Assembly (NCBI RefSeq): GCF_000025225.2
Contig: NC_013895.2
Coordinates: forward strand, 186,001 to 250,000
Origin: Mageeibacillus indolicus UPII9-5
GTDB taxonomy: Bacteria > Bacillota > Clostridia > Saccharofermentanales > Fastidiosipilaceae
Direction: 5' to 3'
Length of the DNA: 64,000 bases
The notes beneath the pieces are model-generated. The model saw only the letters and a list, made by a program, of their open reading frames with translations, did no database searches and had not been told where the DNA came from. Of the stretch, positions 32,250-51,179 are shown piece by piece. Every line of letters begins with the position of its first letter. The stretch's first letter is position 1. The translations under genes and the position numbers were made by a program.

Positions 32250-33551
32250 ATGAAATATGTTATAGAAACTCTGCGTAAAGCGTTTAATGTCGGTGATATG
32301 CGCAAGCGTATCATCTTCACCATTGGGATGATTATATTGTTTAGAGTAGGGGGCAATATCCCGGTTCCGGGTATTGACCGCCAACTCTTCAGCCATCTGA
32401 TTGATCGTTTCGGCCAAATCGGCTCCATGATGAACATTATCTCAGGTGGTGCGCTCAAAGCGGCTTCTATATTCGCGATGGGAATTACGCCATACATCAA
32501 CTCATCAATTATCATTCAGCTGATGACGGTAGTTTTACCTTCGTTGCAAAACTTGCAAAAGGAAGGCGAGACTGGCCGCAAGAAGATGCAGTCCATTGTT
32601 CGTTATGTGACCATCGGTCTTGGTTTGATACAGTCAGTAGCTTTCTGGTATGCCACTCGCTCAGCCGCTTCGACTGTAATGCCGAGTGTGCTCAACGCTT
32701 TCGTGGTTATCTTGTCATTTACCGCAGGTACGGCTGTAATCATGTGGATTGGCGAGCAGATTAACGAATGGGGTGTCGGTAACGGTATATCCTTGCTGAT
32801 CTATGCAGGTATCCTTTCGCGGGTTCCGTACATGACTTCAGGCTTATTCCAGTATTTTCAAGCCTGGTCAGCAGCCAACAACTTCTACATTGCATTGTTC
32901 TTCGCGTTGTTGGTGGTAATTGCTTTCGTAGTGATTATTGTCTTTGTGTCCTATGTAAGCTTGGCTGAACGTCGTATTCCTGTAACTTACGCTAAGCGTG
33001 TTATTGGCAGAAAGCAATTCGGTGGCCAAACAACCTATTTACCACTGAAGGTTAACCAATCCGGCGTCTTGCCGATTATCTTCGCCTTGTCGTTGTTGTC
33101 ATTGCCTAATATGCTGATTTCGTTCTTCTTTTCGCATTCCAACAATTGGCTGGTCAATTGGTTCCGCAACCCGGGAAGCAGCCCATTCTACTATGTGTTG
33201 CAGGCACTGTTGATAATTGGATTTACGTTCTTTTATACGGCCATTCAGTTCAATCCGCTGGAAATTGCCAATAATTTGCAAAAGAACGGTGGCTATATTC
33301 CGGGCATTCGGCCGGGACGTCCTACTTGTGATTATATCGGCAGAACTTCACAACGGATCTGCTGGTTTGACGGTCTGTTCCAGACCATCGTGGTTTTGGT
33401 ACCCCTGTTGCTAGGCTCGGCTACCAATACTTCAGCCCTTTGGTTTGGTGGTACATCTATTCTGATCTTGGTCGGAGTCAATATTGATTTGATGACTAGA
33501 ATCGAATCTCAGATGATGACTTCAAACTATGCAGGATTCCTTGACAGATAA
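32250..33551 (+). CDS. secY: Preprotein translocase subunit SecY
   Basis: A 433-residue ten-helix channel protein. The plug/TM2 region FSHLIDRFGQIGSMMNIISG, GITPYINSSIIIQLMTVV, and the cytoplasmic loop with AERRIPVTYAKRVIGRK are clear. It exports all the signal-peptide proteins noted elsewhere in the window. The GGAGG box lies inside the end of rplO. Confidence 0.98.
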   Translation: MKYVIETLRKAFNVGDMRKRIIFTIGMIILFRVGGNIPVPGIDRQLFSHLIDRFGQIGSMMNIISGGALKAASIFAMGITPYINSSIIIQLMTVVLPSLQNLQKEGETGRKKMQSIVRYVTIGLGLIQSVAFWYATRSAASTVMPSVLNAFVVILSFTAGTAVIMWIGEQINEWGVGNGISLLIYAGILSRVPYMTSGLFQYFQAWSAANNFYIALFFALLVVIAFVVIIVFVSYVSLAERRIPVTYAKRVIGRKQFGGQTTYLPLKVNQSGVLPIIFALSLLSLPNMLISFFFSHSNNWLVNWFRNPGSSPFYYVLQALLIIGFTFFYTAIQFNPLEIANNLQKNGGYIPGIRPGRPTCDYIGRTSQRICWFDGLFQTIVVLVPLLLGSATNTSALWFGGTSILILVGVNIDLMTRIESQMMTSNYAGFLDR

Positions 33552-33570
33552 CGGTGGTAAATGCAGCCCT

Positions 33571-33601
33571 CCATTACGTTAATGTTTGGAGGGCTAATCC
33601 A
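33571..33601 (+). promoter_or_regulatory. Inverted repeat in the secY-adk gap
   Basis: AGCCCTCCA and TGGAGGGCT form a perfect 9-bp stem around about 13 bases, 15 bases before the adk ATG. No T run follows. It would place a hairpin next to the adk ribosome binding site, so a post-transcriptional role is possible. Confidence 0.5.
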
Positions 33602-33614
33602 TGAGGGAACATGT

Positions 33615-34268
33615 ATGATTATCATTCTTTTGGGGCCTCCGGGGTCGGGGAAAGGAACTGTTGCTGAGGCTCTCTGCAAAATGTATCCTTTTAGGCACGT
33701 TTCAACCGGAGATTTGTTCCGTAGCCACATTAAGAACAAAACTCATTTAGGGCAGCAGATTGTCGAGTATATGAATGCCGGCCAATTGGTACCGGATGAA
33801 TTGACGGTCAAACTTATTGAGCATTTTTTGCAGAAAGTTGCGCCGCAAGAAAGCATTATTTTCGACGGCTTCCCCCGAACTGTAAATCAGGCCGAGAAGT
33901 TCGATTTACTGTTGCCGTCATTTGATCGAGTTGTTGATTATGTTTTATCCTTGGATGTTGCCGATGACATCATCAAAAACCGTTTATCTGGGCGTCGGGT
34001 GTGCGTGAATTGCGGAGAAGTCTACAATCTTGCTTTCTTTAAACCGGATGAGCCTAAGGTATGCCGTGATTGTCAGGGCGAATTGATCCAGCGTAAAGAT
34101 GATCAACCAGATGTGATAAGCAGCCGGCTGGCTGTTTACCATGAATTGACAGCTCCTTTGGTCGACTACTATGCCGAGCGGAAGAAGCTTGTTCATATCG
34201 ACAACTCGGGAACGATAGATTCAATCGTTCGCCAAGTCGTCGAGCGGGTAAATTTGGAGCAAAAATGA
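33615..34268 (+). CDS. adk: Adenylate kinase, zinc-lid type
   Basis: A 217-residue enzyme converting ATP and AMP to two ADP. P-loop GPPGSGKGT is at residues 7-15. The LID has four Cys (CVNCGEV and CRDCQG), the structural zinc form of Gram-positives. FDGFPRTVNQAE and the AMP-site HVSTGDLFR are present. ATG 33615 with GAGGGA 6 bases upstream is the right start; longer frames lack family similarity. The stop overlaps map (ATGA). Confidence 0.97.
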   Translation: MIIILLGPPGSGKGTVAEALCKMYPFRHVSTGDLFRSHIKNKTHLGQQIVEYMNAGQLVPDELTVKLIEHFLQKVAPQESIIFDGFPRTVNQAEKFDLLLPSFDRVVDYVLSLDVADDIIKNRLSGRRVCVNCGEVYNLAFFKPDEPKVCRDCQGELIQRKDDQPDVISSRLAVYHELTAPLVDYYAERKKLVHIDNSGTIDSIVRQVVERVNLEQK

Positions 34269-35029
34269 GCAGTAATGTAATTTACTTAAAAACAAAAGAC
34301 GAAATTGCCAAAATGAAGGAATCGGGACAAATTCTGATTAAAGTATTTGAGGCAATGCAAGAAGCGATAAAACCTGGTGTATCAACGAAAACATTGGATA
34401 CCATTGCTCGCGGCATTATCGAGGGTGAAGGAGCCAGGCCCGGATTTTTGAATTATGGCGAGCCGCCATTCCCCGGTACTATCTGTGCTTCCATCAATGA
34501 AGTTGTGGTTCACGGAATTCCCTCGGAAAATGATATTTTGCGGGACGGCGATATAATTACAATTGATGTTGGGGCAGTTCTTGACGGTTGGAATAGCGAT
34601 GCCGCTCGTACATATTTAGTCGGCAATGTGCGACCGGAAGTGCGTGAATTGGTACGGGTAACGGAAGAGTCATTTTTCAAAGGCCTGGAATATGTCCGCC
34701 CGGGTTGCCGTTTAGGCGACGTTCAAGCGGCCATACAAAATCACATCGAAAAGCATGGCTACGGTATTGTGCGCGAACTTACAGGTCACGGCATAGGCAG
34801 AGATTTGCATGAGGCCCCGGACATCCCGAATTACGGCAAAGCTGGTCACGGTCTGCGCCTGCAGGAAGGTATGGTTATCGCCATCGAGCCTATGGTGACT
34901 TTGGGTAAGCGTCATGTATATGTTGCCGATGACGATTGGGCGATCATTACGGTTGACGGAAAACCGGCAGCACATTACGAAAATTCGATTGCTATTATGG
35001 CTGACGGACCGATGCTTTTGACAAAGTAG
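34265..35029 (+). CDS. map: Methionine aminopeptidase, type I
   Basis: A 254-residue metalloenzyme removing N-terminal Met. Metal ligands appear in TIDVGAVLDGWNSDAARTY, GHGIGRDLHEAPDIPNYG and IEPM. NEVVVHGIP holds the catalytic His. It overlaps adk by 4 bases. Confidence 0.97.
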   Translation: MSSNVIYLKTKDEIAKMKESGQILIKVFEAMQEAIKPGVSTKTLDTIARGIIEGEGARPGFLNYGEPPFPGTICASINEVVVHGIPSENDILRDGDIITIDVGAVLDGWNSDAARTYLVGNVRPEVRELVRVTEESFFKGLEYVRPGCRLGDVQAAIQNHIEKHGYGIVRELTGHGIGRDLHEAPDIPNYGKAGHGLRLQEGMVIAIEPMVTLGKRHVYVADDDWAIITVDGKPAAHYENSIAIMADGPMLLTK

Positions 35030-48057: not shown

Positions 48058-48900
48058 ATGAAAAAAACAATTTGCGCATTATTAGCAATCCTGCTAATGG
48101 CAGGAACGACCGGTGGAACCGCCTTTGCATGGTATTTCGAGCCAGAAGAAGTAACCTATGCTGATGCCAATGTCGTCAAAATCGAAAGTTACACTTTTAA
48201 AACGGCAGATCGAAATTCTGCCGGAGAGTATGTGCCGGGTTCAACTTATAGCACAGATGCCGGAATCGTTTTGAACAAAGACGCGTATGAGATGATGGAT
48301 CTGTTGGAAAGAAACCATAGCCTTGCTAAATCCGATTTAAACGCCGACTTTGGCGGTGATTTGGTCACCCTTGGCATCAAAGTAGGGTCAGAGCTTAATG
48401 AAATTGCTAAGAAAATTTATGAACTGAATGAAAAATTTGCCTCTGCTGAGTACCAAAATATGATTAGCCGGATTTTAAGCGGTACTGTCGTTTATGTTGC
48501 TCAAAAAGGTGAATGCCACGAGGACCGTAATGTTGCTGCGGCGGCCGAAGCCCAAGTGAAAGTCAAGAAAAATACGGTCGGTAAAGATGATGTCCCCGAT
48601 ACGGCAGCCTATTTTGACTTGAGAGTGATCCAGCCTACTTTAAATAAAACGGAGTCGCTGTATGCCTACTACCTTGATCTTGACGGGAATATACACTGGG
48701 TAGAATACTATCCGGCGATTAATGGATACCGTTTCCTTTCTTGCGCACCGCAGTACTTGCCGGCTCAGGAAGCTTACCGTCTGGCGTTATCACGTCCGTT
48801 ATATTGCCGCCCGTATTATGAATTTGTGACTGAAGTAGAGCCGCTGTTCACTTTTGATGAGATCACAGCCTACGAAGTTGCCGTATGTTGCAACCCGTAG
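48058..48900 (+). CDS. Secreted hypothetical protein
   Basis: A 280-residue protein that I do not recognise. It has a clear signal peptide (MKKTICALLAILLMAG, cut probable after TAFA). The mature part is acidic and aromatic-rich, with a helical middle (VGSELNEIAKKIYELNEKF) and a C-terminal half rich in Tyr (LYAYYLDLDGNIHWVEYYPA, then RPLYCRPYYEFV). Five Cys sit in the mature part. AAGGAGGG precedes the ATG. It is monocistronic, between its own promoter and a strong terminator. It shows no obvious kinship with the three small secreted proteins downstream. Confidence 0.8.
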   Translation: MKKTICALLAILLMAGTTGGTAFAWYFEPEEVTYADANVVKIESYTFKTADRNSAGEYVPGSTYSTDAGIVLNKDAYEMMDLLERNHSLAKSDLNADFGGDLVTLGIKVGSELNEIAKKIYELNEKFASAEYQNMISRILSGTVVYVAQKGECHEDRNVAAAAEAQVKVKKNTVGKDDVPDTAAYFDLRVIQPTLNKTESLYAYYLDLDGNIHWVEYYPAINGYRFLSCAPQYLPAQEAYRLALSRPLYCRPYYEFVTEVEPLFTFDEITAYEVAVCCNP

Positions 48901-49041: not shown

Positions 49042-49070
49042 TTGACAAGGCAAAGAACCATTGCTATAAT
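49042..49070 (+). promoter_or_regulatory. Consensus promoter of the tRNA cluster
   Basis: Perfect TTGACA and TATAAT with a 17-base spacer, 22 bases before the first tRNA. Confidence 0.92.
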
Positions 49071-49281: not shown

Positions 49282-49356
<75 letters not shown>

Positions 49357-49357
<1 letters not shown>

Positions 49358-49390
49358 AAGACTGCAATGTATATTGCAGTCTTTGTTTTA
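49357..49390 (+). terminator. Terminator of the tRNA cluster
   Basis: An 11-bp perfect stem (AAGACTGCAAT with ATTGCAGTCTT), GTAT loop and TGTTTTA, directly abutting the tRNA-Phe CCA. Confidence 0.88.
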
Positions 49391-49690
49391 TTCCCAGGTT
49401 TTAGTCGCTCATTAGTTACTGGTCGCTCGATCAATTGCTGTTTCCCGTATGAAAAGATGAATTATTTGTTTGCTGCCCAAACTGTATGTTATTTGGCAAA
49501 TACATAGTAGGCCTTATTTATAGAGAAAAATATTTGTCGCCGTTTAGTATAGGATATTATTAGTAGGTAAAAAATGATTTTATTTAAAATGATTGGTTGC
49601 GAACATTTGAATAAAGATTTAAAATTATTTTTATCACTTAAGTGAGTATTGCAGACATAGGTAACATTACTGTTTAAAGGAGGTAAGAGT
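49391..49690. other. AT-rich upstream region of the secreted triplet
   Basis: No gene is seen in these 300 bases. They become strongly AT-rich and contain one promoter (49597-49625) followed by a leader of about 60 bases. Confidence 0.6.
49597..49625 (+). promoter_or_regulatory. Promoter for the secreted triplet
   Basis: TTGCGA and TAAAAT with a 17-base spacer. It is the only good promoter seen ahead of the three genes, which then run to one terminator. Confidence 0.55.
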
Positions 49691-50161
49691 ATGAAATTTT
49701 TTACGAAGGTTATTTCGACGGTTGCGGCACTGATGCTTTTGGCCAATGGGTTGATTTTTGCAGTTGACCTGTCAATTCCACCCGAATACTGGACACAGCC
49801 TAAGCCGCTTACCAAACAGATGGTAGAAACATCAATATTGCACAGCTTCCCTCTTGCTTCTGGCGACCGGACAGCCGATGATCAGGCGGTTACTCGTGAA
49901 GAAGTAAGAGCTGCAGTAAAGAATTTAGATGCGCTGGCAAAACAAGGCGAATCTATTGACACCTATTCAGGGATGTTCTTCTTTGTCGATAAGAGTTCCA
50001 CTGATGCGCTTTATTACTATGAACAAGTAATTGACGGAGTGTATTATTCCGGTGAACTAAAGTTAGTTGAAATTGCCGGAAATGGTGCTCTATATAGAGG
50101 AGAGCTGAGGGGTTATAAGGTTGAAAATGTTCTTCAGGAAGTTTATCGACAGAAGAAGTAA
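49691..50161 (+). CDS. Small secreted protein, triplet member 1
   Basis: A 156-residue protein of no family known to me. Signal peptide residues 1-24 (hydrophobic core VAALMLLANGLIF, cut probable after FA). The mature part has a variable, charged N-terminal half and a C-terminal module starting near residue 100: SGMFFFVD, YYYEQVIDGVYYSGELKL, then NGALYRGELRGY. The same module ends the next two genes. AAAGGAGG lies 8 bases before ATG. It is 17 bases ahead of member 2 in an apparent operon. Confidence 0.85.
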   Translation: MKFFTKVISTVAALMLLANGLIFAVDLSIPPEYWTQPKPLTKQMVETSILHSFPLASGDRTADDQAVTREEVRAAVKNLDALAKQGESIDTYSGMFFFVDKSSTDALYYYEQVIDGVYYSGELKLVEIAGNGALYRGELRGYKVENVLQEVYRQKK

Positions 50162-50178
50162 TTGATTGGAGGTAGAGT

Positions 50179-50523
50179 ATGAAAAAATTTTTTAGGATAG
50201 GTTTAGCATTAGCTATGTGCTCCTTAACTATAGCCGGATCAGTCTCAGCTTACGATTTGTCTGAAGCAAATAATAAGGTAACTGATCTTAAGTTGGTCGA
50301 AATGGTTCGATCGGGCCCAGAATATGTAGATACACGATATTTTAATGTTGTTGTTCCGGGTGGAAAGGCTCAACGTTACTTTTATAGTGAAGTTATCGGC
50401 GATGTGTACTATTCGGGATACTTAGAGATGAGAGAAGTTGGATATAACGGAACGCTGTACAGTGGTTATCTGGACGGTTATCGCAAAGGTAGTGTTATGG
50501 CTGATCCTAAGGAAGAGAAGTGA
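50179..50523 (+). CDS. Small secreted protein, triplet member 2
   Basis: A 114-residue protein with a signal peptide (MKKFFRIGLALAMCSLTIAG, cut probable after SVSA). It is the shortest member and is little more than the shared module: YFYSEVIGDVYYSGYLEM and NGTLYSGYLDGY. TGGAGG lies 7 bases upstream. Its stop is 11 bases before the next start. In this copy the DG of the other two reads GD, and the C-terminus is acidic/basic (DPKEEK). Role unknown. Confidence 0.85.
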   Translation: MKKFFRIGLALAMCSLTIAGSVSAYDLSEANNKVTDLKLVEMVRSGPEYVDTRYFNVVVPGGKAQRYFYSEVIGDVYYSGYLEMREVGYNGTLYSGYLDGYRKGSVMADPKEEK

Positions 50524-50534
50524 AAGGACAACAA

Positions 50535-51062
50535 ATGAAAAAAATAATTACGACTTTACTTTCAACTCTGATTGTATTTGTAACCGTTGCTGGCATTGTG
50601 TGGGCTGTTCAGCCACTGAAAACTTCAACTCCGGCCGTTTCGTCAGCTGTTGAAAATGGCGAAACTGTGGTGAAGTCTGGTAGCGAATCAGCAGCTTTGC
50701 CAAAACCATTGGATCGTGACGCGGCAAAGGCTACGGTTGCGGCGGCGTTCGGTCTCCCCAAAGCATATGCAAAAAAAGTTGACCCGCAAGGCATCCGCCT
50801 CAGCGAGATAAACGATAAGTTTGAGGAACTGGAAATACAGGTTCTCGAGGGTAAGCCGGTTGACCACAAGAGTGGCGAATTCTCCTTTGTTGACCCGGTG
50901 AACAGATGTCCGCATCAGTATTATGAACAAGTAGTGGATGGTGTTTACTATGCTGGTTATCTGACCCGCACTCAAATCAGTGCTAACGGAACTCTTTACC
51001 GAGGAACATTGCGAGGCTATTCGGTGGACTTCATGAAAGCTGAAATTCGTAAGCACAAATAA
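50535..51062 (+). CDS. Small secreted protein, triplet member 3
   Basis: A 175-residue protein with a signal peptide (MKKIITTLLSTLIVFVTVAG, cut probable after VWA). Like member 1 it has a long variable N-terminal half, then SGEFSFVD, YYEQVVDGVYYAGYLTR and NGTLYRGTLRGYSVDFM. ATG 50535 follows AAAGGAC; a GTG at 50520 would precede the signal peptide awkwardly. Members 1 and 3 align over about 85 residues; member 2 aligns over the last 50. Ends at a strong terminator. Confidence 0.85.
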   Translation: MKKIITTLLSTLIVFVTVAGIVWAVQPLKTSTPAVSSAVENGETVVKSGSESAALPKPLDRDAAKATVAAAFGLPKAYAKKVDPQGIRLSEINDKFEELEIQVLEGKPVDHKSGEFSFVDPVNRCPHQYYEQVVDGVYYAGYLTRTQISANGTLYRGTLRGYSVDFMKAEIRKHK

Positions 51063-51124: not shown

Positions 51125-51179
51125 TGTATCGTTTCTCCCCAAGTTAATTTAAAAACTTGGGGAGGGCGGTACATTTTTT
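51125..51179 (+). terminator. Terminator of the secreted triplet
   Basis: CTCCCCAAG pairs with CTTGGGGAG around a 12-base AT loop; outer TGTA/TACA pairs extend the stem, and T6 follows. Confidence 0.88.

Follow-up and report, generated by a model that had tools for sequence, protein, structure and literature searches.

A family of small, predicted secreted paralogues with a shared C-terminal signature in Mageeibacillus indolicus

Three consecutive genes of Mageeibacillus indolicus UPII9-5 and a fourth, unlinked gene appear from their sequences to encode divergent paralogues (P1 to P4) of one domain, not a module carried on unrelated partners. Our preferred explanation, to which we assign a probability of roughly 0.5, is that P1-P4 are Sec-exported single-domain paralogues with a fixed core and diversified exposed faces, acting as a co-expressed set of soluble binding proteins. 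Within this explanation the fold is predicted, and we infer both the binding by exposed faces and the kind of target. The window, meaning the whole stretch of 64,000 bases that was analysed, spans bases 186001-250000 of a single-contig genome of 1,809,746 bases, described as CP001850 with a size of 1.81 Mb and 44.2% G+C (PMC11318147). A literature search found nothing on the P1-P3 genes, and in a metaproteomics paper (PMC12208373) the species appears only in a metabolic table.

P1, P2 and P3 are consecutive plus-strand open reading frames separated by gaps of 17 and 11 bases. The features of the locus, in window positions unless marked otherwise, and of P4 are as follows.

49356-49385, plus strand: terminator-like hairpin after tRNA-Phe, a 13-bp stem and then TTTTATT
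49597-49625, plus strand: weak candidate promoter, TTGCGA-17-TAAAAT, with 9 of 12 consensus matches
49676-49684, plus strand: ribosome-binding site of P1, AAAGGAGGT, read from the sequence
49691-50161, plus strand: P1, open reading frame for a predicted secreted protein of 156 aa, with the signature at about 50009-50119
50168-50173, plus strand: ribosome-binding site of P2, GGAGGT, read from the sequence
50179-50523, plus strand: P2, open reading frame for a predicted secreted protein of 114 aa, the shortest member, with helix and sheet only
50523-50528, plus strand: ribosome-binding site of P3, AAAGGA, sharing one base with the end of the P2 stop codon
50535-51062, plus strand: P3, open reading frame for a predicted secreted protein of 175 aa counted from its ATG
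51125-51179, plus strand: intrinsic terminator predicted by folding against shuffles, a 20-bp stem (51125-51173) and then TTTTTT
genome C1:87469-87966 (= L065:7470-7967), minus strand: P4, fourth paralogue, alone and unlinked, recognised by its similarity to P3

The earlier note on this DNA had described three tandem genes, each with its own signal peptide and ribosome-binding site, and all of these are present where it placed them. The start of P3 is most likely the ATG at 50535, the GTG at 50520 being merely a mechanical start of the reading frame. A common signature does end all three proteins, as had been claimed, and a single expression, VYY[SA]GxL-x7-NG[TA]LYxGxLxGY, matches each of them; the spacer, however, is seven residues long rather than eight, and the leading part, given in the note as YYxEV, actually reads [YF]Y[ES][QE]V[IV][DG][GD]VYY. 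A DNA pattern for YxGxL-x7-NGxxYxGxL finds 3 matches in the 64 kb and none in any of 100 dinucleotide shuffles. The GC content of the three genes is 0.40-0.47 and that of the window 0.456; horizontal acquisition was considered and set aside, the base composition of the genes not being clearly apart from that of the window.

Similarity among the copies extends well beyond this signature. A search of the whole genome with P3 found P1 as a homologue colinear with it along some 120 residues (36% identity, E 1e-20), and P3 matched P2 at 33% identity (E 3e-10). The parts of P1 and P3 that precede the signature are homologous in their own right (z = 11.4, with none of 2000 shuffles reaching the score), whereas the corresponding part of P2 scores marginally against P3 (z 2.8) and P4 (z 3.9) and shows no similarity to P1. 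The statement that the N-terminal halves differ in sequence thus holds for P2 and fails for P1 against P3. Aligned with P3, P4 scores z 4.5 ahead of the signature and z 5.1 inside it; its profile match has an E of 7e-59, but P4 is itself part of that profile. An extra N-terminal stretch of P4, GELDGHPVYMIEF, is predicted at low confidence to form a beta hairpin ahead of the shared helix and sheet, and P4 may be the longer ancestral form. P2 is a shortened version of the family domain that keeps the helix and the sheet. P4 is flanked by an iolB/kduI-like gene and one resembling carboxynorspermidine decarboxylase, both named by inspection.

We used AlphaFold2 to model residues 56-175 of P3 from an input of three sequences (pLDDT 84.3, pTM 0.76). 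In the numbering of this model, used below for the residues of the strands, helices occupy 6-16, 34-49 and 109-118, and strands 57-65, 72-79, 82-94 and 97-108. The mature domain is therefore predicted to be a helix on a four-stranded antiparallel meander, with a short C-terminal helix in P1 and P3. The signature makes up the adjacent last strands, 3 (VYYxGxL) and 4 (TLYxGxLxGY), with tight turns at DG and NG, and so forms the C-terminal half of a single compact domain in the model. The model of P4 is poor (pLDDT 54.5) yet has the same order of one helix and four strands, plus the extra N-terminal hairpin. The helix of P2 is not amphipathic.

How the conserved residues lie on these strands was read from residue alternation, over few residues, and not from the coordinates. 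On one strand face 4/7 and 4/6 residues are invariant, and on the other 1/6 and 3/6. The conserved alternate positions are V82, Y84, G86 and L88, followed by Y100, G102, L104 and G106; the more variable face comprises Y83, A/S85, Y/E87, R/S101, T/E/Y103 and R/D105. The concentration of invariant residues on one face is more suggestive of a sheet core than of a ligand site common to the copies. The copies are also old. Third codon positions are 35-41% identical in the signature and 27-41% over all regions compared, which is close to random, and dN is 0.32-0.53 in the signature against 0.95-1.49 before it. Near-random third positions combined with a low dN in the signature point to old duplications in which the signature was retained at the protein level, although, because dS is saturated, selection is indicated solely by the contrast between regions.

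Another way to view the signature, which follows the earlier note's idea of a binding module on divergent partners, is as an independent binding or anchoring module, directed for example at the cell wall, an S-layer or a glycan and joined to unrelated N-terminal partners. The dN contrast agrees with this, the signature being far better conserved than the remainder, as does the N-terminal part of P2, with its marginal score against P3 and nothing against P1. However, P1 and P3 are homologous ahead of the signature, P4 aligns over both parts, the P3 model is one continuous domain, and no other protein with the signature was found in the genome or elsewhere in our searches. The homology of P1 with P3 and of P3 with P4 before the signature in particular does not support unrelated partners, and we regard an independent module as unlikely.

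Export of P1-P3 is predicted from their N termini, which combine K/R, a hydrophobic stretch of 15-20 residues and an A-type cleavage region. Cleavage sites read from the sequence are LIFA/VD in P1, SVSA/YD in P2 and IVWA/VQ in P3 (the slash marking the cut). In a hydropathy scan each protein has its peak inside residues 4-25 and nothing above 0.9 past residue 28, and thus no hydrophobic segment beyond the signal strong enough for a membrane anchor. The three proteins accordingly look like Sec-exported soluble proteins. A lipoprotein reading was rejected: the signals of P1 and P3 lack Cys and do not match the lipobox [LVI][ASTVI][GAS]C, and the LAMC of P2 has Met at -1, with the better SVSA site downstream. 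Neither a sortase motif, nor a lipobox, nor a second membrane segment was found in P1-P4. M. indolicus has been reported as a Gram-negative-staining monoderm (PMC11448272), so that Sec-dependent export would deliver a protein into the wall or past it.

The tandem layout, the export signals and the terminator support the earlier proposal of an operon of extracellular products. Its framing by one promoter and one terminator is borne out on the terminator side, where the 91 bases of 51100-51190 fold at -39.5 kcal/mol (z = -8.4 against shuffles). On the promoter side support is weak, the candidate being a 9/12 match of a kind found 9 times in the region against 5.1 expected, near chance. The hairpin past P3 (51113-51185, -39.5 kcal/mol) exceeds the usual length and stability of a terminator, and the window contains its core stem only once. 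Upstream of P1 lie tRNA-Val, tRNA-Asp and tRNA-Phe, and judging from its sequence the hairpin at 49356-49385 would separate the tRNA transcript from the P1-P3 operon, insulating its upstream side. The other neighbours are gapA, downstream of P3, and sbcD/sbcC-like and galE-like genes.

Two further features of the neighbourhood were observed. The tRNA-Val/Asp/Phe cluster is fronted by a perfect sigma-70 consensus promoter at 49042-49070 (TTGACA-17-TATAAT, with TG before the second hexamer). Upstream of the operon, 48058-48900 encodes a secreted protein of 280 aa whose last 54 residues are common to five larger secreted paralogues, four on the minus strand (C1:31722-32837, 33261-34370, 96425-97588 and 97808-98965) and a fifth on the plus strand (C1:1792928-1794151). 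These larger paralogues have about 370-410 aa, contain DDVPNTASYF and end in DVACCCCK, and several form tandem pairs; among 57 related genomes this second family has no match.

We searched widely for relatives of P1-P4. Pfam, NCBIfam, PHROGs and PADLOC gave only sub-threshold noise for P1-P3, with nothing above cut-off, in line with the earlier remark that no family was recognised. With P3, P4 and three alignments as queries against whole genomes, no relative was found in the 58 nearest genomes, in 391 genomes of the class, 188 of the order or 398 of the phylum (overlapping sets, together at most some 1,000 different Bacillota genomes). IMG/VR viral contigs, plasmids and phages gave none either. 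Two scans of 84,980 species for the signature, one with back-translated peptides and one with a DNA pattern, returned only out-of-frame or unrelated matches. The weak matches that we read out were likewise unrelated, among them a polysaccharide deacetylase, a penicillin-binding protein, an elongation factor G, an ABC ATPase and a PilX-like pilin; the best of them (G042, E 3.4e-4) is a short motif in a 656-residue pilin-like protein and was dismissed because a search of some 390 genomes would be expected to yield such an E by chance. The module described as new-looking therefore has no relative outside this genome in the sets searched. With four sequences behind the profile, relatives of less than about 25% identity may have escaped it; as far as these sequence searches reach, the family appears to be lineage-restricted, which falls short of proof that it is unique.

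Fold comparison with the P3 model was equally blank, with no Foldseek match against the PDB at E 0.001 or better, a best VIA-align Z of 2.9 and a best match in a viral fold search of E 0.006 and TM 0.26, neither of which is credible. The best VIA-align rows are periplasmic Cache-type sensor domains (PctA, TlpB), which like the model have a helix and an antiparallel sheet, but at Z 2.2-2.9, 4-11% identity and rmsd 4.2-5.7 the resemblance is weak and short of a credible match. A blank fold search does not establish a new fold.

Small domains of a helix and an antiparallel sheet often act as inhibitors of proteases, lysozyme or glycosidases. P1-P3 could accordingly be secreted inhibitors of such extracellular enzymes, a role that their size, their export and the predicted helix on a four-stranded sheet would broadly fit; the fold searches, however, returned no match of this sort, no protease gene adjoins P1-P3, and we consider this role improbable. 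Still less probable, in our estimation, is that P1-P3 are paralogous variants of secreted antimicrobials (unmodified bacteriocins) or contact-independent toxins. Such a function would suit secreted proteins encoded by small, diverged tandem genes, in a bacterium whose habitat is probably a dense community. However, no immunity, ABC transporter or modification gene is adjacent, the genes lying between three tRNAs and gapA with only the sbcD/sbcC-like and galE-like genes nearby; P1 and P2 are anionic (-5 and -3), without Cys and without a double-glycine leader; and PADLOC, Pfam and NCBIfam gave no bacteriocin match.

The two halves of the signature had also been suggested to form an internal repeat. 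When the last 62 residues of each of the three proteins are matched to themselves, the two YxGxL halves do fall in the same register, at offset 16, but in each protein the significance is marginal (p = 0.024, 0.011 and 0.083), and the halves may be a duplicated hairpin or may have converged on a favourable strand sequence. Strands of PQQ-like propellers and MORN-type repeats also read NGxxYxGxL. The family shares the short strand motif NGTLYxGxxxGY with PQQ-like or designed Scone beta-propellers, and over 25 residues the four-protein profile matches the Scone propellers (E 2e-7 when the repeats are summed, with no single stretch significant). That the signature is a remnant of a propeller or MORN-type repeat is nonetheless highly improbable, since P1-P4 have no repeat array, with two half-units 16 residues apart in P1-P3 where MORN repeats are tandem 23-residue YxGxW-type units, Pfam gives no MORN or PQQ match to E 10, no blade-like fold was matched, and a helix-sheet-helix model is no propeller.

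We return, then, to the reading of P1-P4 as exported single-domain paralogues. The Sec pathway would export all four proteins and release them into or around the cell wall. V82/Y84/G86/L88 and Y100/G102/L104/G106 would form the inner face of the sheet, with the glycines making room for the packing of aromatic residues or the helix, and the other strand face would be exposed and diversified among the paralogues. Each paralogue would thereby present its own binding surface, and might bind a different extracellular target, a host or bacterial glycan or protein, with the tandem copies co-expressed as a set.

P1-P4 resemble other orphan families of small secreted proteins in their size, signal peptides, tandem paralogues and conserved core with a variable remainder, and, as in those families, no relatives are detectable outside the lineage. 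None of the four libraries has a name or a curated model for them, and they constitute a sequence family that is new but of a familiar kind; since orphan tandem secreted paralogues are a common type of finding, the surprise is limited. A bolder claim, which we think rather unlikely, is that P1-P4 represent a new family of extracellular domains whose small fold is its own and which occurs in a single lineage of vaginal bacteria, a fixed Tyr/Gly/Leu sheet scaffolding diversified faces that bind host or community molecules. P1-P3 are predicted to be exported by a species that can be cultured and is linked to bacterial vaginosis, and they fall outside every curated family searched. They might be used as extracellular markers specific to the species, and their small size suits them to direct structural and binding work.
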